Shown: positions 1 to 12,585 of the stretch, piece after piece
Layout of the letters: every line of letters starts with the position of its first letter
Position numbering within the stretch: the first letter of the stretch is position 1
Position numbers and translations under genes: made by a program
The notes under the pieces: model-generated
What the model was told of the DNA's origin: nothing
Seen by the model: only the letters and a program-made list of their open reading frames with translations
Databases searched by the model: none
From: Moorella sp. Hama-1
Lineage (GTDB): Bacteria > Bacillota > DSM-521 > Neomoorellales > Neomoorellaceae
Assembly (NCBI RefSeq): GCF_023734095.1
Contig: NZ_AP024620.1
Span: forward strand, 2,910,501-2,974,500
Length of the DNA: 64,000 nucleotides
Direction: 5' to 3'

Positions 1-121
1 CTTTATCGGGCCGCAGCTCTTTTACGGTCTTCAGTGCTGCTTCCCGGCCCAGGAGGCCGTACATCTTGCCGATACCGCTGCAGGGGATGACGTAAACTTT
101 GCGGGAGCTATTTCCCGGCAT
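1..121 (-). CDS. DGC-type putative zinc-binding protein, 5' end only
   Basis: Only the first 40 codons lie in the window; the gene runs off the left edge. The ATG is at 121 and the N-terminus contains VYVIPCSGIGKMYG. This resembles the start of the neighbouring 290-residue protein (YVILPCNGLDK), so both look like members of the DGC putative zinc-binding family, whose conserved N-terminal Cys lies in a PCxG motif. It overlaps the end of the preceding gene by 14 bases, which implies translational coupling in one minus-strand operon. The function is unknown. Family assignment rests on the short N-terminus and the neighbour. Confidence 0.7.
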   Translation of the reverse strand, partial: MPGNSSRKVYVIPCSGIGKMYGLLGREAALKTVKELRPDK

Positions 122-980
122 TGAAATCAGCCACCTTTTCCTTTAATACTTCCATATAGCGCTGCCCGTCCAGTAAAAATTCGCGGTCAGCCTCAAAGTT
201 GGTCAGTTCCAGTTCGGCAATCCAGCCCTTTTCATAGGGGTTTTCATTGATGAGTTCCGGCGCCTCCAGGATAGCTTCATTAACGGCCACCACCCGGCCG
301 GTAACCGGGGAAACCAGTTCATAAACCGCTTTTGCCGACTCGATGGTACCCATTTCGCCGAATTGCTCCACTTCTGTACCCGGATCGGGGGGCGTGACAA
401 AGGTAATATCGGAAAGGTTTTGCTGCAAGTAGTCGCTGATGCCTACGCGGCCCCTATTCCCCTCTACCTGCACCCAGCAGTCGTTCTCGTTGAAGTAAAA
501 GCCTGCCAGGGGTACCCGGAAGATAAACTTATCGTGGCGATGGATGGCGTATTCCAGCGGGCCGGCAAAAAGGCCGGCGTTTTCTCCAGGAACCCGACCG
601 GCCTCCGCTTCCATGAAAACTGGCTGCCAGGACCGCCAGACATCCTCCACGAAGGCCGCCGCCCCTGCCCCCACCCGCCAGTCAGGGCCGGGGTTATAGT
701 CCCTCTTTTTAGCTTCTTCGGCCATGGTTATTTTACGGTAAATCTTCAGGTTGTTGTTAGCGGCGATGCGGCTGGCGCAGCGGGTGGCGCAGCCGTCGAT
801 AACCACCAGGCTGCCTTCTTGAAGAAGGGAAGCGTAACGGGACGGCGCCGTCTGGTAAAGCACCGGGCAGATGATCTCGCTGCCCGTAGCTGCCGCCATT
901 TTCAGGGCCAGTTCCCTGGCCAGGCAGCCTGCTTCTTTGTCCAGGCCGTTGCAGGGCAGGATAACATACTTTGCAGCCAC
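108..980 (-). CDS. DGC zinc-binding domain fused to a GcvH-like lipoyl domain
   Basis: This 290-residue protein has two parts. Residues 1-95 resemble DGC zinc-binding proteins, with C10 in PCNGLDK, C19, and the D62-G63-C64 signature followed by C68. Residues 145-285 resemble glycine cleavage H protein, with the lipoylation site ESAKA (K217) in a GTIESAKAVYELVSP context and the typical NPYEKGW at 248-254. The fusion suggests a swinging lipoamide arm tied to a metal or sulfur site. Start is GTG at 980, with AGGGGG about 9 bases upstream and only 2 bases after the ferredoxin gene. No other glycine cleavage gene is in view, so a role in glycine cleavage is not supported. Substrate unknown. Confidence 0.82.
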   Translation of the reverse strand: MAAKYVILPCNGLDKEAGCLARELALKMAAATGSEIICPVLYQTAPSRYASLLQEGSLVVIDGCATRCASRIAANNNLKIYRKITMAEEAKKRDYNPGPDWRVGAGAAAFVEDVWRSWQPVFMEAEAGRVPGENAGLFAGPLEYAIHRHDKFIFRVPLAGFYFNENDCWVQVEGNRGRVGISDYLQQNLSDITFVTPPDPGTEVEQFGEMGTIESAKAVYELVSPVTGRVVAVNEAILEAPELINENPYEKGWIAELELTNFEADREFLLDGQRYMEVLKEKVADFNAGK

Positions 981-982
981 GG

Positions 983-1270
983 CTATTTACCCCCTTCTTC
1001 CTGGCGCAGGGCCTTGATTGCCTCCAGGACCCAGGATTTCTCGGGAAAGGAAATGGCGTCCGGCCCGCAGGTCTTGGCGCAGGCGCGGCAGAAGACGACG
1101 CAGTTGGTGGGATTGGCCACGATCAGGCGGGGCTCTTCCTCCCGGACCTCGTATACCTGGTGCGGGCAGAATTTAGCACACTCCAGGCAGTAATTGCACC
1201 GGCTATAATCAATCACCGGCGCCCAGGTGATCTTCTCCCGCGGCACGCCCATAAAGGTGTTTTCAGCCAT
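983..1270 (-). CDS. 2[4Fe-4S] ferredoxin-type protein
   Basis: This 95-residue protein has two cysteine clusters, C25-C28-C31-C35 (CNYCLECAKFC) and C57-C61-C64-C68 (CVVFCRACAKTC). The first matches a classical [4Fe-4S] binding motif; the second has CxxxC spacing at its start, slightly off canonical. It probably carries electrons between the HdrA-like protein encoded just upstream and an unknown partner. It overlaps the upstream gene by 8 bases and ends 2 bases before the DGC-GcvH gene, so the three are almost surely co-translated. A simple soluble ferredoxin is the alternative reading. Confidence 0.85.
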   Translation of the reverse strand: MAENTFMGVPREKITWAPVIDYSRCNYCLECAKFCPHQVYEVREEEPRLIVANPTNCVVFCRACAKTCGPDAISFPEKSWVLEAIKALRQEEGGK

Positions 1271-1640
1271 CGGACCGCGCCTCCCAATCCGCCAGGGCGG
1301 CGGCCACTTTCTGAAATGCTTCCTCGGTGGTCAGGTCGCGGATATCCAGGGGATAAAAATCGGTCTTTAAGTCCATCCCCGCTGCCTTCAGGGCGTCCCG
1401 GAACATTTTATTCTGCATGTTGGGGGCGCAGGCGGCAATCATGACCTTTCGGTGGGCCTTGAGGAAGTCGGCCAGGAAGCGGTCACCGTCCTCCTCGCAT
1501 AACTGGGGGTGGATAAAACCGTACTCCACCGGCAACTCAACCCGTACGCGGTTGATAAAGTCCCAGATGTCCATCTTGGCAAACCCCGGGCACTTGCCGG
1601 TGCAGACGCACATGATTAAACCCGGCTTTTCATCAGGCAT
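1263..1640 (-). CDS. Stand-alone HdrA N-terminal-like iron-sulfur protein
   Basis: This 125-residue protein resembles the N-terminal region of heterodisulfide reductase HdrA without the FAD domain. It has CVCTGKC near the start (C11, C13, C17), C48, and the hallmark-like AACAPNMQNKMF (C71), corresponding to the A-SC-P---H---F pattern of HdrA. I chose ATG 1640 over the in-frame ATG at 1658 because AAAGGAGA lies just upstream of the former. It heads an operon with ferredoxin, DGC-GcvH and DGC genes. An adaptor or electron-transfer role is inferred; catalysis alone is unlikely without flavin. Confidence 0.78.
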   Translation of the reverse strand: MPDEKPGLIMCVCTGKCPGFAKMDIWDFINRVRVELPVEYGFIHPQLCEEDGDRFLADFLKAHRKVMIAACAPNMQNKMFRDALKAAGMDLKTDFYPLDIRDLTTEEAFQKVAAALADWEARSDG

Positions 1641-1703
1641 ATGTGTTTCTCCTTTCATTATTGCTTCTCCGGCAGTTTGTTCCGCTTATCTCTTGACATA
1701 TTC

Positions 1704-1731
1704 ATTATATAACTTTCTACTTATTTGTCAA
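1704..1731 (-). promoter_or_regulatory. Sigma-A-type promoter of the HdrA-N/ferredoxin/DGC-GcvH operon
   Basis: Reading the minus strand, TTGACA (1726-1731), a 16-base spacer and TATAAT (1704-1709) lie about 65 bases before the start codon at 1640. The outer ends form an inverted pair, CTTGACA at 1692-1698 and TGTCAAG at 1726-1732, which could be an operator. The rest of the 1641-1968 gap is AT-rich and holds no gene that I can see. It contains a TCGAATATTATT box near 1793. Confidence 0.65.
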
Positions 1732-1968
1732 GGTTATTATATTCCATTTTACTAATACATACTGCCAGGGCAATTTCGTAATAATTATAGCGTCGAATAT
1801 TATTAAATGCAGAGATAATAATATGGATATAGAGCCGGGTCCTTTAATAGCAAGCAAAACCCCTAACGATTGCTTTAATCCAGTAACCATGGCCGGATTT
1901 ACCTATTTACATTTTAATCATTTCATGCTAATCTCCTTATATAATAAATATCTAATGAGGTGAGCCAA

Positions 1969-3361
1969 ATGTCCATCGGAACTTTGGCCGGTGAAACCAG
2001 GACTTATGCTAAGAACAAGTGGATCCTGGCCACGGTGGCCATCGGCGCCTTTATTTCCACTTTTGACGGCGGCGTGATTAATGTCGGCCTGCCGACCATC
2101 GCCAGCTATTTTAAGACTAATATCAATACCGTCCAGTGGGTCACTTCCGTCTACCTGTTGACCATGTCCGCCCTGCTCTTGATCTTCGGCACCATGGCCG
2201 ACGCTTACGGCCGCCGCCGTATCTATAACGCCGGTTACTTTGTCATCACCATTTTCACCCTCTTTTGCGCCTTTACCACCAATATCGGGATGCTCATCTT
2301 TTTCCGGATCTTACAGGCCATAGGTGGAGCGATGGTTATGGCCAATGGTATGGCGATTGCCACCGAAAACTACCCGCCAGAAGAACGCGGTAAAAACCTG
2401 GGGTTGTTGGGTACCATCGTGGCCGTCGGCAGCCTGGCCGGGCCGCCCCTGGGGGGCCTGGTAATCGGCTGGATGGGCTGGCGGGCCGTCTTCTTTCTAA
2501 CATTCCTGGTCGCCCTGGCCGGCTTCCTGGCGTCGATGGTAACCATACCCCGGGACAGGCGTTTAAAAGAAAAATTAAACTTCGACTATATCGGGGCCCT
2601 GGCTGTTATTATCGCCATAGTAATCTTTATCTATGGTTTTTCCAATGCCAATGTTTACGGTTGGACCAGCCCGATCATTCTTATTAGCATCGTCCTCTTT
2701 GTTGCCAGCAGTTTGTTTCTTAATCTTTTACGAGCGCAGCCGCGCCAATGCTATCCTCGATTTCCAGCTCTTTAACAACTGGACCTTTACTTCTTCGATT
2801 ATAGCCGCCCTGGTGTCTTTCATCACCATGTACTCGCCGAAGGTTTTGATACCCTTTTTCTACCAAAAAATCCTGGGGTTTACCCCCCAAAAAGCCGGTT
2901 TCTTAATGATGGCCTTCCCGACGGCCATGGCTGTTACCGCCTCTTTCAGCGGCTGGCTTTCCGATAAAATCGGTTATGTCCTCTTGACCACCAGCGGGCT
3001 GGTATTGAACGGCCTGGCCCTGGTGGCCCTGGCCAACATCAGCCTGCAAACGCCGATAACCTTGATTATTATTTATATCGCCATGATGGGCGCCTCCCTG
3101 TTCCAATCCCCGAACAATAGCTGCGTGATGGGCAGTGTGCCCAAGAACAAACTCGGCGCCGCCACCGGTATTAGCCAGTTGATCAAGAATCTGGGTATGG
3201 TCATCGGTATTACTTTTTCCGTAGTCATCTTTAGCTCGCGCATGGCCGGTATGTCCGTTGCCTACAACCAGGCTTTTGTCAAGAGCATGGGTTTTGTCTA
3301 TTACCTGGCAGCCGTTTTAAGTTTTGCTGGGGCCGCTATATCTTCCCGGCGTGGTAAATAA
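1969..3361 (+). pseudogene. MFS drug-exporter-like transporter (DHA2/EmrB type), frameshifted
   Basis: Two overlapping reading frames together encode about 465 residues of an MFS transporter. The first covers FDGGVINVGLPTIASYF and the DAYGRRR loop; the second resumes as FLIFYERSRANAILDFQL and runs to the C-terminus. The frame changes by one extra base near 2721-2725 (TTTCTTAATC). The start is ATG 1969, with GAGGTGA just upstream, rather than GTG 1960. In DHA2 exporters these are proton-driven efflux pumps with 14 membrane segments. Either the gene is broken or the base is a sequencing error in a short T/A run. It ends 24 bases before a truncated DGC gene. Confidence 0.8.
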
Positions 3362-3385: not shown

Positions 3386-3625
3386 ATGACGCAACAGGAG
3401 AATTGGTACCTTCCCTATATGGATCAAAAGGTCAAGGGCATTAAAGTGGTGGAACGCCCGGCACCGGTAGCTGTCTTTTACTGTGCCGGGGCCTCCAATG
3501 TGGGCCAGAGCACGGTCCTGGGCAGCAACGAGGCTGCCCGGCGCCTGGGATATGACCAGGCCGCCCTCTTATGCCTGGCCAGTAATAAAGTAGCTTGTTA
3601 TTATTTTCCTATAAATACAAGTTAA
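3386..3625 (+). pseudogene. Truncated DGC-type putative zinc-binding protein
   Basis: The 79-codon frame starts well (ATG 3386, AAAGGTGGGA upstream). It reads VAVFYCAGASNVGQSTVLGSNEAARRLGYDQAALLCLAS, typical of the first half of DGC-domain proteins, with the conserved Cys in YCAGASN. After LCLAS near codon 67 the sequence turns AT-rich and the frame soon stops, so the second half with the DGC triad is missing. It probably once encoded a full-length partner of the adjacent MFS gene. A short functional protein is possible but less likely. Confidence 0.65.
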
Positions 3626-4111: not shown

Positions 4112-4128
4112 ACGGAGGTGAAAGGTAT

Positions 4129-4164
4129 ATGTTTAGACTCATGCATTGCCCTTTTAGGTATTGA
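4129..4164 (+). CDS. Possible 11-codon leader peptide
   Basis: An ATG at 4129 sits 8 bases after a very good ribosome-binding site (GGAGGTG, 4114-4120) but opens only 11 codons (MFRLMHCPFRY). It lies between the PadR gene and the DUF2703 gene. It may be a leader peptide, the stump of a lost gene, or chance. The strong site is the only positive evidence. Confidence 0.3.
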   Translation: MFRLMHCPFRY

Positions 4165-4249
4165 AGGTAGATCGAACTGGTGGTCCTTTTCATCGACGTC
4201 ATCTTTCCGGTTATACCTTCAATATCATCTTCGCATGAGGAGGCCACGT

Positions 4250-4999
4250 ATGATGGCAGAAAAGAAAGGATTGCTGGCCAGGGTTTTGGGCCGGCAGGGA
4301 AGCTCTTGTTGCTCCTTCCAAATCGAGGCGATACCGGAAGGAGACACCTCTACCGCTGATAATGGTTGCTGCTGCGGTGTTGCCTTGGCGGATAACCCTG
4401 AAGGAGCAGGAGGGCATGAAGCAGGGTTATCACCCGCAACCGGGGATTCCCAGCGGTCCCTCGACATCGAGTTTCTCTACCTGGACCTCGATGCCTGCAC
4501 CAGGTGCCGGGGAACGGGGCGCAACCTGGAAGAGGCCCTCAACGAAGTGGCAGGGATTTTGCAAGCCACCGGGATCCAAGTCAACCTGCGCAAGATCCAT
4601 GTCCGCACGGAAGAACAGGCCCTGGCCCTGGGCTTTGTCAGTTCGCCCACCATTCGCATCAACGGCCGGGACATCCAGCTTGACATTCGGGAAAGCCTGT
4701 GCGAATCCTGCGGCGACCTCTGCGGCGAGGATGTGGACTGCCGCGTCTGGGTGTACCAGGGTAAAGAATATACCGAAGCTCCTAAAGGGATGATCATCGA
4801 GGCCGTCCTGAAGCACGTTTACGGCGGGGGTACCGCAGCTCCGGCTGTAAGCAAACCATTGAAGGAGCTGCCCGACAATTTAAAGCGCTTCTTTGCGGCC
4901 AGGCGCAAAAAAGAAGAGGTTGGAACCGGCCCCAATAACGGCCCGGGCACACCCGATAGTTGTTGCGGTATATCCCCATTAGCAAAATGCTGCGGTTAA
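4250..4999 (+). CDS. Cys-rich DUF2703-domain protein
   Basis: This protein of about 249 residues carries a DUF2703-like core beginning SLDIEFLYLDLDACTRCRGT, followed by a thioredoxin-like stretch with LGFVSSPTIRINGRDI and a CESCGDLCGEDVDC cluster. Extra cysteine pairs occur near the N-terminus (SSCC, GCCCG) and at the extreme C-terminus (DSCCG, KCCG). The start is ATG 4250 or 4253, with GAGGAGG just upstream; longer readings to 4118 lack a site. Such proteins are thought to bind metal or act in thiol chemistry, but the function is not established. Co-expression with the PadR gene is likely. Confidence 0.72.
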   Translation: MMAEKKGLLARVLGRQGSSCCSFQIEAIPEGDTSTADNGCCCGVALADNPEGAGGHEAGLSPATGDSQRSLDIEFLYLDLDACTRCRGTGRNLEEALNEVAGILQATGIQVNLRKIHVRTEEQALALGFVSSPTIRINGRDIQLDIRESLCESCGDLCGEDVDCRVWVYQGKEYTEAPKGMIIEAVLKHVYGGGTAAPAVSKPLKELPDNLKRFFAARRKKEEVGTGPNNGPGTPDSCCGISPLAKCCG

Positions 5000-5103: not shown

Positions 5104-8100
5104 TTAGACTTTCTCCACTTTCACCCTGGTGTCGTAGAAGGAGGCGCTGCCGCCGATGGGGTCAGTGAGGGAAGTGGTCTTCATCTTTGTGTCGAGGAGC
5201 ATCACGGCATTGGGGCAGAGGCCCTGGCCCCGCCGGGGATCGCCTTTAACAACCTGGCCGTCGATAACGACGTCCCGGGCGCCGTAGGCCCAGTGGCCGT
5301 AGTGCCAGGAGGCGGCAATGACCCCGGGCCTGATACCCTCGATGAGTTTAACCTTGCCCTGTACCGCCTCGGCGCCGGCGGGGCCCAGGTCCAATTTACC
5401 TTCAGGGTTAGTCCGGGAGGTGAGCTTGACCCGGTCACCGTCATGCAGCCCCAGGCGGGCGCCGTCGTTGCGGTGCATAAGGATGAAATTCTCCGGCAGG
5501 AGGGCTATTTGGGACCAGTAGTTGCCGGGGGTCCGGGATTGGCCGCCGAAGATTTCCTTGAAGGTTATCAACTGGAAGGGGTAGTCCTCATCCCGGACCG
5601 GGGTCCCGTCGCTGTTGCTGATAGGTTCCCACTGTGGCACTCCGGCAAAGGGTTTACCGGTAATACTATCACGGGTGGTGGCCGCGGGTTCGCTATAAAG
5701 ATTCATCAGCTTACCAAAGGGATGGCCGACATAGCTGCCGTCAACTGCTTTGGCGGCATCTTCAAAGCGTCCGCCCCGATTTAGTATATAGACCGTCTTG
5801 CGCCAGCGGTCAGCACCCACAGCCCGGCGCCATTTATCTTCACTATATACGGCCGGCGGTAAATGGCGCCGCGCCGTTTTGAACAGGGCGAGTTCGCGGT
5901 CATCAGCATCGGGCACTTCTTCCCCAGGCTTGTCACCAGAGGCCAGGTTGGCCGCAGCTTTTAGATAGTAATCCTCAGGTCGTTTAAAATCCCAGCCCGG
6001 TCCGAAGCCGTCCTGGCCGTAACCGGGCAGGCCCAGGGCCTCGGCGATGGCCAGCATGGCGGCCTCGGCGGAGATAGGCATCTCCTCACCAAAAACCCTG
6101 ACGACCTCCGGGATCGGGGCGGCCACGGGCTGCCGGAATTTGGTCGCTTTAGTCGTTGTTGCCGGCGTTGCCCCCAGGAAGGCCCATCGTTCCAGGTAGG
6201 TGATATCCGGGAAGATATAGTCAGCATACATAGAGGTCTCGCCGATGACGATGTCGTCGGCAATGAACAGGGGCACCCGCTCCAGGTCCTGCAGGATTTT
6301 AATCTGCGCGGCTCCCCCCGGCGCCGCCAGGACAGGGGTACCCATGTGCAACCAAAGGATTTTAATAGGATAAGGATATCCGGCCCCGGCGGCCGGGATA
6401 ATCTCCTGGTAGACATCGGAGGTCAGGGGAAACCAGGGCCTATCTGCCGGGAAGCCCTTAAACAGGGTACTGCGATCGTAGTGAGCGCCTTCACGGGTGA
6501 GCTTGATCCCCCAGGGGGAAACCTTACCCCGGTGCATCTTGCCGAGATCAAAGGGCTGGCCCGGCTTGCCGCCCCCGGCGGCCCAGGAACCACCCCCGGC
6601 CGTCAGGCCGCCGCGCCAGTCCACGTTGCCAATGAGCAAATTGAGAATAATAATGGCCTGGGCGGTGTAATAGCCGTTGGTATGCTGGACGGCGCCGCGG
6701 TAGAAATCAATGGCTGCCTGCTTGCCGTAACTGGTAAATTCCCGGGCCAGGTCGCTGATGGCCTGGGCGGGAACGCCGGCCGCGGCCGCCAGTTCCTCGA
6801 TGCTTTTTGCCCCGGCCTGCTCCTGGAGGAGGGTAAAGGCCGACTTTACTTTAATACCATTAACCTCAGCGGTAACGAAAAGGTCGCCTTCAACCGGATT
6901 ATCCTTATCCTCGGGGTTGACGGCAACCAGCTGGCCATTGCGGAATACCACGAAAAGGTCCTTGCCCTTTTCGCCATCAGCCAGGCCGGCCTCGCTGGCC
7001 CGGAGGAAGGGCCCCGGCTGGCCATCCTCATCGATTTTCACCAGCCAGGTGGCATTAGTCCAGGATTTTTCCCCGTCCTGGGCCGCGGCCGCCCGGTTGG
7101 CGTTAGTAAGGAATTTGGTATCATAGCGCTGGTTGGCAATAATCCACTGGATCATCCCCAGGGCCAGGCTCAGGTCGCCGCCGGGTTTGACCGGTACCCA
7201 CCACTGGGCGTGGGCGGCGGTCTTGGAGAAACGCGGGTCCACCACGGCCATTTTCAAGCCCTTTTCCACCAGGGAGCGGGTAATCTGCTCGGCCATGGGG
7301 GTGGGGCCGAAGTTGGCCTCGAAGGCGCCCGTGCCCCAGAAGATGACAAAGCGCGACCAGCGGTAATCGGGCTTCATGTGATTAGGTCCTGGCGCCCACT
7401 TGCCATCGCTGTACTGGGCCGTGGCCCATTTGTAAGCCACATGGTGGCTCTGCTCGCAGATAGTGGTGTGCTCAAACCAGTTAACCGAACCAAAGCTGTT
7501 GAGGACAAAGCGTTTGGTCCAGTCGCTGCGGCCCGGTTCAATGCGCCCGGCCATAAAAACAAACTGGTTGTTTTTCGGGCCCAGGTCCGGGTGCTCGGGA
7601 TCAAGCAAGAGATCCAGGTTGGCGGCATATTTAGCTTTAAAATCCGCCAGGGACATCTCCTTCCTGGCCACCTTGGCGGCGTCCTCACCCATAGCCTTGA
7701 AGGCGGCCGGATCTTGAGCGGCAAAAACCTCTTTAAAGCCCGGTACTATCCGGTCCTCGCCAATGGCGGCAAAGAGCTTGCCACCGTTGACAATCTCTTT
7801 AATGGCCTGGTCGAAGGGTATAGCCTGCCACTTGTTAGAACCCCGGGGGCCGTTGCGTTTCAACACCTTGACCAGACGGTAGGGGTCGTACAGGGTCTGG
7901 ACCCCGGCCTGGCCCTTGGGACAGAGCCGGCCATCAACTCTGGCCGCAACCTCCGGCGAGGTGTTGTAGGGCAGCTGGGGGTAATAATTGACCGGGCTAT
8001 AGGGATTGCCATCCAGCTTGACCAGGACGCCGTTGCTCAGCTTGCCCTTGAGGGTACACTGGGTGTTACACTGCAGGCAGACGCCGTAAATCATATTCTC

Positions 8101-8262
8101 GGCCCGGGCGAGTTCGTATGCCCCTTCCCCGTTTCCCTGCTCACCGGCTGTCCCGCTTTCGTTGGCACCGGCCAGGGAAGGGGCTTCCGCCGCCAGTAAG
8201 GCCGCCCCGCCCAGCAGGGCCGAGGTTTTTAAGAAATCCCTGCGTTTGATTTTATAGCTCAT
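5104..8262 (-). CDS. ttrA: Molybdopterin oxidoreductase, tetrathionate reductase catalytic subunit-like
   Basis: This 1052-residue protein begins with a twin-arginine signal (KRRDFLKTSALLGG, R7-R8), so it is probably exported folded. A [4Fe-4S] site follows (C62, C65, C69, C114: VCLQCNTQC and GRLCPKGQAG), then the molybdopterin body and a C-terminal dinucleotide-binding domain. The NPYSPVNYYPQLPY region and the length fit the TtrA branch of the DMSO-reductase family. GGGAGGTG precedes ATG 8262. It is last in the order ttrB-ttrC-ttrA, and a PhnD-like sensor lies upstream as in known ttr loci. Thiosulfate, polysulfide or arsenate as substrate cannot be excluded from sequence alone. Confidence 0.8.
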   Translation of the reverse strand: MSYKIKRRDFLKTSALLGGAALLAAEAPSLAGANESGTAGEQGNGEGAYELARAENMIYGVCLQCNTQCTLKGKLSNGVLVKLDGNPYSPVNYYPQLPYNTSPEVAARVDGRLCPKGQAGVQTLYDPYRLVKVLKRNGPRGSNKWQAIPFDQAIKEIVNGGKLFAAIGEDRIVPGFKEVFAAQDPAAFKAMGEDAAKVARKEMSLADFKAKYAANLDLLLDPEHPDLGPKNNQFVFMAGRIEPGRSDWTKRFVLNSFGSVNWFEHTTICEQSHHVAYKWATAQYSDGKWAPGPNHMKPDYRWSRFVIFWGTGAFEANFGPTPMAEQITRSLVEKGLKMAVVDPRFSKTAAHAQWWVPVKPGGDLSLALGMIQWIIANQRYDTKFLTNANRAAAAQDGEKSWTNATWLVKIDEDGQPGPFLRASEAGLADGEKGKDLFVVFRNGQLVAVNPEDKDNPVEGDLFVTAEVNGIKVKSAFTLLQEQAGAKSIEELAAAAGVPAQAISDLAREFTSYGKQAAIDFYRGAVQHTNGYYTAQAIIILNLLIGNVDWRGGLTAGGGSWAAGGGKPGQPFDLGKMHRGKVSPWGIKLTREGAHYDRSTLFKGFPADRPWFPLTSDVYQEIIPAAGAGYPYPIKILWLHMGTPVLAAPGGAAQIKILQDLERVPLFIADDIVIGETSMYADYIFPDITYLERWAFLGATPATTTKATKFRQPVAAPIPEVVRVFGEEMPISAEAAMLAIAEALGLPGYGQDGFGPGWDFKRPEDYYLKAAANLASGDKPGEEVPDADDRELALFKTARRHLPPAVYSEDKWRRAVGADRWRKTVYILNRGGRFEDAAKAVDGSYVGHPFGKLMNLYSEPAATTRDSITGKPFAGVPQWEPISNSDGTPVRDEDYPFQLITFKEIFGGQSRTPGNYWSQIALLPENFILMHRNDGARLGLHDGDRVKLTSRTNPEGKLDLGPAGAEAVQGKVKLIEGIRPGVIAASWHYGHWAYGARDVVIDGQVVKGDPRRGQGLCPNAVMLLDTKMKTTSLTDPIGGSASFYDTRVKVEKV

Positions 8263-12219: not shown

Positions 12220-12585
12220 ATGGCGAACAAGTTGCTCATAACCCTAACCTGCGGGCGCAATGACCCGGAAAAGGCTACGGTGGCCTTTAACGTCGCCACG
12301 ACAGCTATTATGTCCGATATGGAAGTACTGTTGGCCATGAGCTCCGAGGGCAGCACCCTCAGTGTTAAAAATGGCGCCGCCGATGAAATCGCCGTGCCGG
12401 GGATGCCGTCGCTAAAGGAATTAATGGCTACCTTTGTGGAAAACGGCGGCCAGATGATTGTCTGTACCCCCTGTTTTATGAAACGGGGTTATAAGGAAGA
12501 AGATCTTAGAGAGGGTGTTACCCTGGCCGGAGCGGCCAAAGTAGTAGAGTTTATTTCCCAGGGTGCGGCTACCCTTTCGTTTTAA
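12220..12585 (+). CDS. DsrE/TusD-like sulfur-carrier family protein
   Basis: This 121-residue protein has the DsrE-like pattern KLLITLTCGRNDPEKATVAFNVATTAI, a TLSVKNGAADEIAVPGMPSL loop, and a candidate active-site VCTPCFMKRGY containing two cysteines. DsrE-family proteins transfer persulfide sulfur or act as peroxiredoxin-like redox proteins. Its position divergent to the tetrathionate sensor suggests that it handles sulfur released by tetrathionate or thiosulfate reduction. GGAAGGGTGA precedes ATG 12220. Two boxes containing GCGAATATTA and TCGAATATTA (about 12162 and 12191) lie upstream. Confidence 0.82.
   Translation: MANKLLITLTCGRNDPEKATVAFNVATTAIMSDMEVLLAMSSEGSTLSVKNGAADEIAVPGMPSLKELMATFVENGGQMIVCTPCFMKRGYKEEDLREGVTLAGAAKVVEFISQGAATLSF

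Follow-up and report, generated by a model that had tools for sequence, protein, structure and literature searches.

The stretch of DNA analysed here (the window, 64,000 nucleotides) spans positions 2,910,501-2,974,500 of the closed 3.32-Mb genome of Moorella sp. Hama-1. At its left end lies a tight minus-strand operon (window 1-1640) encoding an HdrA-N-like protein, a ferredoxin, a fusion of a DGC and a GcvH domain (DGC-GcvH), and a second DGC protein (DGC2). What does a lipoyl-type protein do in such company? A lipoate-linked sulfur or metal redox system had been proposed in a first-pass annotation of the same sequence. The metal(loid) side of this proposal is borne out by a context of arsenic genes, but the sulfur side is not. 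Our preferred reading, to which we give a probability of about 0.5, is that the operon encodes a cytoplasmic lipoyl/Fe-S redox module of the arsenic-resistance islands of anaerobes, which would reduce or bind arsenicals for export or methylation.

Gene Organization

All four genes of the cluster were found where they had been placed in the first-pass annotation (Table 1). The start codon chosen there for the HdrA-N gene, the ATG at 1640, is favoured by the orthologues over that at 1658, and is backed by an AGGAG ribosome-binding site. Co-translation had also been suggested, and is likely because the genes overlap or nearly touch. Past the left edge of the window, the operon continues with a third DGC protein (DGC3, 139 aa), a 110-aa cysteine-rich protein with the motif CSCGCGG and a 131-aa Fe-S protein (PF04060). 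The cluster is 93-96% identical in three congeners and is also conserved across phyla; hence it did not arise by chance.

A promoter scan gave two hits, compared with 2.0 in shuffled sequence, one of the two being the promoter that precedes the operon. As the hit count equals the shuffle expectation, the weight of this promoter is limited to its perfect match and its conservation. Three other Moorella-like genomes share a block of ~60 bp around the promoter ahead of the module, and diverge farther upstream.

Table 1. Features of the operon in window coordinates.
Feature	Position	Strand	Evidence
Sigma-70-type promoter, TTGACA-N16-TATAAT	1704..1731	-	12/12 consensus matches; precedes the operon
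AGGAG ribosome-binding site of the first gene (HdrA-N)	1649..1653	-	Read from the sequence
HdrA-N-like Fe-S protein, 125 aa, stand-alone, no flavin domain	1263..1640	-	PDB HdrA matches
Two-[4Fe-4S] ferredoxin, 95 aa	983..1270	-	PF00037/PF12838
DGC-GcvH fusion, 290 aa, GTG start	108..980	-	PF08859 + PF01597
DGC domain of the fusion, residues 6-94, Cys 10, 38, 64, 68	699..965	-	PF08859, E 1e-16
GcvH lipoyl domain of the fusion, residues 162-281	138..497	-	PF01597, E 1.3e-34
Codon of the predicted lipoyl lysine K217	330..332	-	Computed position; invariant 79/79
DGC2, 5' part (140 aa; remainder left of the window, L002:18100-18522)	1..121	-	PF08859, E 4e-13

Distribution of the Five-Gene Module

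A search of 85,000 species genomes with an HdrA-N profile returned 97 loci, of which 80 were kept. The domain combination is therefore found well beyond this genome: five genes (HdrAN-Fd-DGCGcvH-DGC2-DGC3) recur in these 80 further loci, and their order is the same in 70 of them. DGC2-DGC3 is placed first in three loci. In a Bathyarchaeota locus (L107), GcvH is a separate gene of 155 aa, and judging from the sequences, the fusion may have replaced the unfused form, or the reverse. The module is present in Bacillota, Acidobacteriota, Bacteroidota, Actinomycetota, Planctomycetota, Armatimonadota and Asgard archaea, and a tree of its members groups them largely by phylum. The strong HdrA-N form is rare within the phylum of the window (9/398 genomes). 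As the module is present in some congeners and absent in others, it behaves as an accessory island. One Moorella-like genome (G006) carries a broken module, in which HdrA-N is lost and all that is left of the fusion is a DGC remnant of 137 aa; in this single case there was no GcvH, no dihydrolipoyl dehydrogenase (LPD) over the cut-off and no lipoate-ligase match.

Seven loci with a weaker HdrA-N paralogue family were inspected. Five have an HdrA-N gene bearing the same five cysteines, the ferredoxin partner is seen in the sixth (L123), and the seventh (L121) holds a truncated strong HdrA-N form beside LPD. All six short-form loci adjoin ArsR plus ACR3-type, ArsC or ArsP genes. The five with the HdrA-N gene (L117-L120, L122) belong to other Clostridia, where the shorter paralogue and a 71-aa ferredoxin lie in ars islands.

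No description of the module was found in searches of the open-access literature that paired arsenic with GcvH, DGC, lipoyl, lipoate ligase, Hdr, SaoE or roxarsone, among others, and none of its proteins bears an Ars name in NCBIfam or Pfam.

The HdrA-N-Like Protein and the Ferredoxin

The HdrA-N-like protein has no Pfam match, but was matched by HdrA N-terminus profiles of NCBIfam (E 0.002-0.03) and by HdrA structures in the PDB (9sfi, E 7e-5; 7bkb, E 8e-5; 5odc, E 0.002). It aligns to the first ~90 residues of HdrA only, and the chain stops before the HdrA flavin domain, in agreement with its initial description as an HdrA N-terminal domain lacking flavin. Five cysteines (17, 19, 23, 54 and 77, in the numbering of the 131-aa reading) are invariant, all five being present in 83/83 sequences. 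The CxC motif, C54 and C77 align with the four cysteines of HdrA, and by analogy we infer that they hold a [4Fe-4S] cluster. Cys23 is without a counterpart in HdrA in the PDB alignments. Compared with HdrA of the CoB-CoM heterodisulfide reductase (5odc, 7bkb, 9sfi), the protein thus shares the N-terminal region and the cysteine pattern, but it stands alone at 125 aa, has the extra invariant cysteine and lacks the FAD and ferredoxin domains. Leaving aside the three congeners, its sequences are 60-76% identical across phyla, which makes HdrA-N the most conserved subunit of the module. The eight cysteines of the ferredoxin are invariant in 28 orthologues.

The DGC-GcvH Fusion and the DGC Proteins

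Both domains of the fusion, PF08859 (E 1e-16) and PF01597 (E 1e-34), score far above the cut-off. The lysine in the motif IESAKAVYE is residue 217 and is invariant in 79/79 fusion homologues. An AlphaFold2 model (mean pLDDT of 90.9) has two confident domains joined by a flexible linker (127-134). The GcvH part superimposes on the pea H-protein 1htp (VIA Z of 22.9, rmsd of 0.9 over 131 residues), and the fold, together with a lipoyl lysine in an ES.K context, places it in the GcvH type. Sequence and model thus uphold the initial description of the protein as a DGC domain fused to a lipoyl-type GcvH, as do the LPD or ligase genes beside many of the loci. The genome carries lipoate-ligase homologues, and K217 is, as predicted from the sequence, in all likelihood lipoylated. 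The fusion had been called unusual, which holds with respect to databases, but it recurs in dozens of species. No plasmid record with the fusion was found; the searched records gave only ordinary GcvH.

The C-terminal domain resembles GcvH of glycine cleavage in its fold, its lipoyl lysine and its LPD partner. It differs in being fused to a DGC domain, and neither gcvP nor gcvT was seen in the flanking ORFs read around the module. The canonical GcvH of the genome is encoded separately at 2.45 Mb, and we therefore rejected the fusion as the glycine-cleavage H-protein. A third, more distant GcvH is encoded at 0.33 Mb.

Three proteins of the module exceed the cut-off of the DGC family (PF08859) and have its conserved cysteines, so that each module holds three four-cysteine DGC proteins (the fusion, DGC2 and DGC3) in which these residues are invariant or nearly so. 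In the fusion, C64 and C68 are conserved in 79/79 homologues, C38 in 78/79 and C10 in 77/79. Four cysteines are likewise conserved in 79 orthologues of DGC2, with residues 14, 71 and 75 invariant and residue 45 present in at least 90%. The AlphaFold2 model of DGC2 is confident (pLDDT of 92.7) and looks Rossmann/flavodoxin-like. No fold relative is claimed, as the best Foldseek match (E 0.07) and the best VIA match (Z of 7.2) lay within the background, and a DGC2 profile gave no match to PDB sequences. In Acidobacteriota and a few others (L042, L047, L050), DGC3 has a C-terminal extension of ~90 aa that starts with CxC.

Arsenic and Lipoate Genes Near the Module

Left of the operon, and mostly in other orientations, lie two half-size ArsP-family permeases, a PadR regulator, an MFS transporter, ArsR and ACR3. 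The ACR3 gene is the only one of the genome and is 5.5 kb from the fusion gene; in the module-bearing congeners G005, G009 and G010, ACR3 is in each case within 5.5-10 kb. The permeases (160 and 180 aa, L002:15780-16801) are adjacent, and the pair recurs beside the module in several Clostridia.

The neighbourhood was counted in 48 well-covered loci, whose flanks extend 5 kb or more upstream and 7 kb or more downstream. ArsR was present in 37 loci, ACR3 in 19, ArsA in 14, ArsC in 13, ArsP in 11, ArsD in 11, ArsM in 8 and half-size ArsP-family permeases in 7. The control consisted of 20 windows of 20 kb around the canonical gcvH genes of relatives of the window, from species other than those of the 48 loci. 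At least one ars effector was present in 34/48 module loci and in 0/20 control windows (Fisher 2e-8), with corresponding figures of 37/48 and 0/20 for ArsR (Fisher 1e-9) and 19/48 and 0/20 for ACR3 (Fisher 3e-4); related loci are non-independent, so these P values overstate the difference and are a guide only. The linkage of the module to arsenic genes is strong and exceeds the background. ArsR alone is no proof of arsenic because the regulators of the sHdr system of sulfur oxidation are also of the ArsR type and sense sulfane sulfur (PMC10451225, PMC12423496); the argument is carried by ACR3, ArsM, ArsA and ArsD.

LPD was present in 27/48 loci, compared with 3/20 control windows, and lies immediately upstream on the same strand in 25/80 loci. 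Lipoate ligase was present in 9/48 loci and 1/20 control windows, an enrichment that is not significant (P 0.14). The identities of both were confirmed with curated models. In two Bacillota genomes (G127 and G221), LPD, the module and lipoate ligase lie in one stretch. When 145 neighbour genes of sampled loci were counted by Pfam/NCBIfam family, the top families were ArsR, LplA, ArsP, LPD, ACR3 and methyltransferases. Neighbour clustering, curated models and this count agree on ArsR, LPD, ligase, ACR3, ArsP and ArsM-type methyltransferases, and also on thioredoxin-like proteins, ArsC-type phosphatases and DsbD/CcdA.

Several observations count against the preferred reading. There was no ars effector in the flanks of 14/48 loci at the thresholds used, the Fusibacter 3D3 locus among them. 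ArsC-type reductases occur in 13/48 loci, where arsenate reduction may already be covered. The PF03773 'ArsP' permeases are not arsenic-specific, and their best NCBIfam match, SaoE, is below the cut-off. ArsC presence does not decide on an arsenate-reductase role of the module: a second ArsC of the LMW-phosphatase type is absent in this genome and in G005, is near the module in G009 and G010, and varies among module-free congeners.

Proposed Role in Arsenic Handling

The module is very likely arsenic-related, and its frequent linkage to arsenic-resistance genes suggests that it is probably a new means of arsenic handling. With classical ars operons (ArsR, ACR3, ArsC, ArsA, ArsD, ArsM, ArsP) it shares genomic company, and probably regulation and substrate, whereas its proteins are outside the named Ars families. 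Every partner that could be identified is reductive (NADH-linked LPD, ferredoxin, the HdrA-type Fe-S protein and thioredoxin-like proteins), dihydrolipoamide is strongly reducing and binds As(III) tightly, and the nearby exporters act on trivalent arsenicals; we therefore propose reduction or capture of arsenicals by the lipoyl arm. LPD and lipoate ligase would be supplied from genes nearby or elsewhere. The lipoyl arm and the cysteines of the DGC proteins, which may bind arsenic, zinc or a cluster, would be maintained in the reduced state by LPD (with NADH) and the ferredoxin/HdrA-N pair. Arsenic would then be taken up by the dihydrolipoyl dithiol, through reduction of arsenate or methylarsenate or through capture of arsenite, and the arm would swing it between the four-cysteine DGC proteins. 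The trivalent product would be handed to ACR3/ArsP for export or to ArsM for methylation. Ferredoxin-thioredoxin reductase, in which ferredoxin feeds an Fe-S protein that acts on a dithiol, offers no more than an analogy to the module.

The lead given by the first-pass annotation, sHdr-like sulfur oxidation or sulfur transfer, is highly improbable as the role of the module. HdrA-like and lipoyl proteins do occur together here, as in sHdr-LbpA, and the module resembles that system in having a GcvH-like lipoyl protein outside carbon metabolism, an HdrA-related Fe-S protein, a dedicated ligase and an ArsR-type regulator (PMC6067878, PMC12423496). Cysteine desulfurase is also near the module in 14 loci. 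Yet HdrB/HdrC linkage and a full-length flavin HdrA are missing (the HdrA-like protein has 125 aa), and DsrE, TusA and other sulfur-transfer families are not among the frequent neighbours. No HdrBC genes were found nearby past the left edge, where the first-pass annotation had pointed, the nearest CCG-domain gene being ~140 kb off. LbpA has two strictly conserved cysteines near its N- and C-termini that are absent in GcvH, although some archaeal LbpA lack them (PMC6067878); the GcvH part of the fusion has C168 only, in 46/79 homologues. The same genome has a separate sHdr-like locus at 331-345 kb, with ArsR, DsrE, DsrH, GcvH-like, HdrC, HdrB, HdrA, lipoate ligase and radical-SAM genes. The DGC fusion, the three DGC proteins and the arsenic neighbourhood are the module's own, and the arsenic exporters and ArsM at the module speak against a sulfur reading. 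It is also very unlikely that the true substrate is a different metal(loid) (antimony, selenium or mercury, for instance) and that the module sits in mixed resistance islands. ArsR/SmtB regulators and PF03773 permeases serve several metals and ACR3 also carries Sb(III), but ACR3, ArsM, ArsA and ArsD jointly indicate arsenic.

Among the arsenic readings, the module may be a non-redox chaperone or lipoyl decoy, in which the DGC cysteines and the dihydrolipoyl arm would trap As(III) and pass it to ACR3/ArsP/ArsA, or would rescue poisoned lipoyl proteins; in either case LPD and the Fe-S proteins would do no more than keep thiols reduced. Dihydrolipoate is a classic As(III) ligand, and a weak link between the two is noted in PMC6205960. 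The three four-cysteine DGC proteins per module and the presence of ArsA in 14/48 and ArsD in 11/48 loci are in keeping with this reading, but the ferredoxin and the HdrA-type Fe-S protein, the most conserved subunits, exceed the needs of a chaperone. We consider a chaperone or decoy unlikely, and we lean modestly towards a redox-active module rather than a pure chaperone. Methylarsenic chemistry, that is, reduction of MAs(V) to MAs(III) or methyl-arsenic cleavage or transfer together with ArsM and ArsP, is rather more doubtful. ArsM occurs in 8/48 loci, and the sole over-cut-off ArsM adjoins the module in both surveyed genomes that have one (G050, G127); ArsP-family permeases (11/48, half-size 7/48) are also consistent with it. 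However, ArsM is absent from most loci, this genome included, and neither a methyltransferase nor a corrinoid partner accompanies the module with any consistency. The more specific possibility that the module is a cytoplasmic arsenate (or methylarsenate) reductase fed by ferredoxin and NADH, with lipoate as its catalytic arm, and that this reductase acts as an electron sink, is improbable. If true, it would explain arsenate-dependent growth in anaerobes without ArrAB, as reported for Fusibacter sp. 3D3 (PMC9751042). The genome of that strain has the module (L096), but its flanks hold ArsR and no ars effector, and the link is for this reason a lead only. Searched for lipo-, glycine cleavage, heterodisulfide and related terms, the paper gave no mention of the module.

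The known settings of lipoate are five complexes of carbon metabolism and sHdr sulfur oxidation (PMC6067878). If the preferred reading of a lipoyl/Fe-S arsenic module is true, a lipoyl-based arsenic system would extend the roles of lipoate, which among cofactors is the one best known for being poisoned by arsenic. A function would likewise be assigned to DGC proteins, to the stand-alone HdrA-N family and to conserved genes of unknown function in cultured acetogens (Acetobacterium, Eubacterium callanderi, Clostridium ljungdahlii). The module would then be a testable candidate for arsenic transformations in anoxic soils and sediments that lack an assigned enzyme.

Other Genes of the Window and the Genome

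The cluster had been described as close to tetrathionate reductase and DsrE genes. A TtrA-like gene does lie at 5104-8262, but DsrE is ~11 kb off (12229-12582) and neither belongs to the module. The tetrathionate-reductase-like gene was rejected as a module part since it is not near the module in other module-bearing genomes. The molybdoenzyme it encodes scores 514 bits against a TtrA cut-off of 1750 bits, well below. An arsenate-reductase role has been suggested for a Pyrobaculum TtrA (cited in PMC9751042), and by analogy the molybdoenzyme of the window may be an arsenic enzyme.

In the sHdr-like locus (L124, G000:C1:328000-345000), the ligase is fused to DUF116, and radical-SAM genes are present. 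An MFS transporter gene on the other side of the operon (1960-3361), within the window, consists of two overlapping ORFs in different frames (1960-2775 and 2633-3361) and looks frameshifted. A fourth DGC-type gene (3386-3625) is truncated, with 66 residues matching a 120-aa orthologue before the frame is lost; it is intact (120 aa) in G009 and G010, and degraded in G005. A DUF2703 protein (4118-4999) resembles the 'DF family (seleno)protein' model at a score below the cut-off, and in 8 loci DUF2703 genes are again found near the module.
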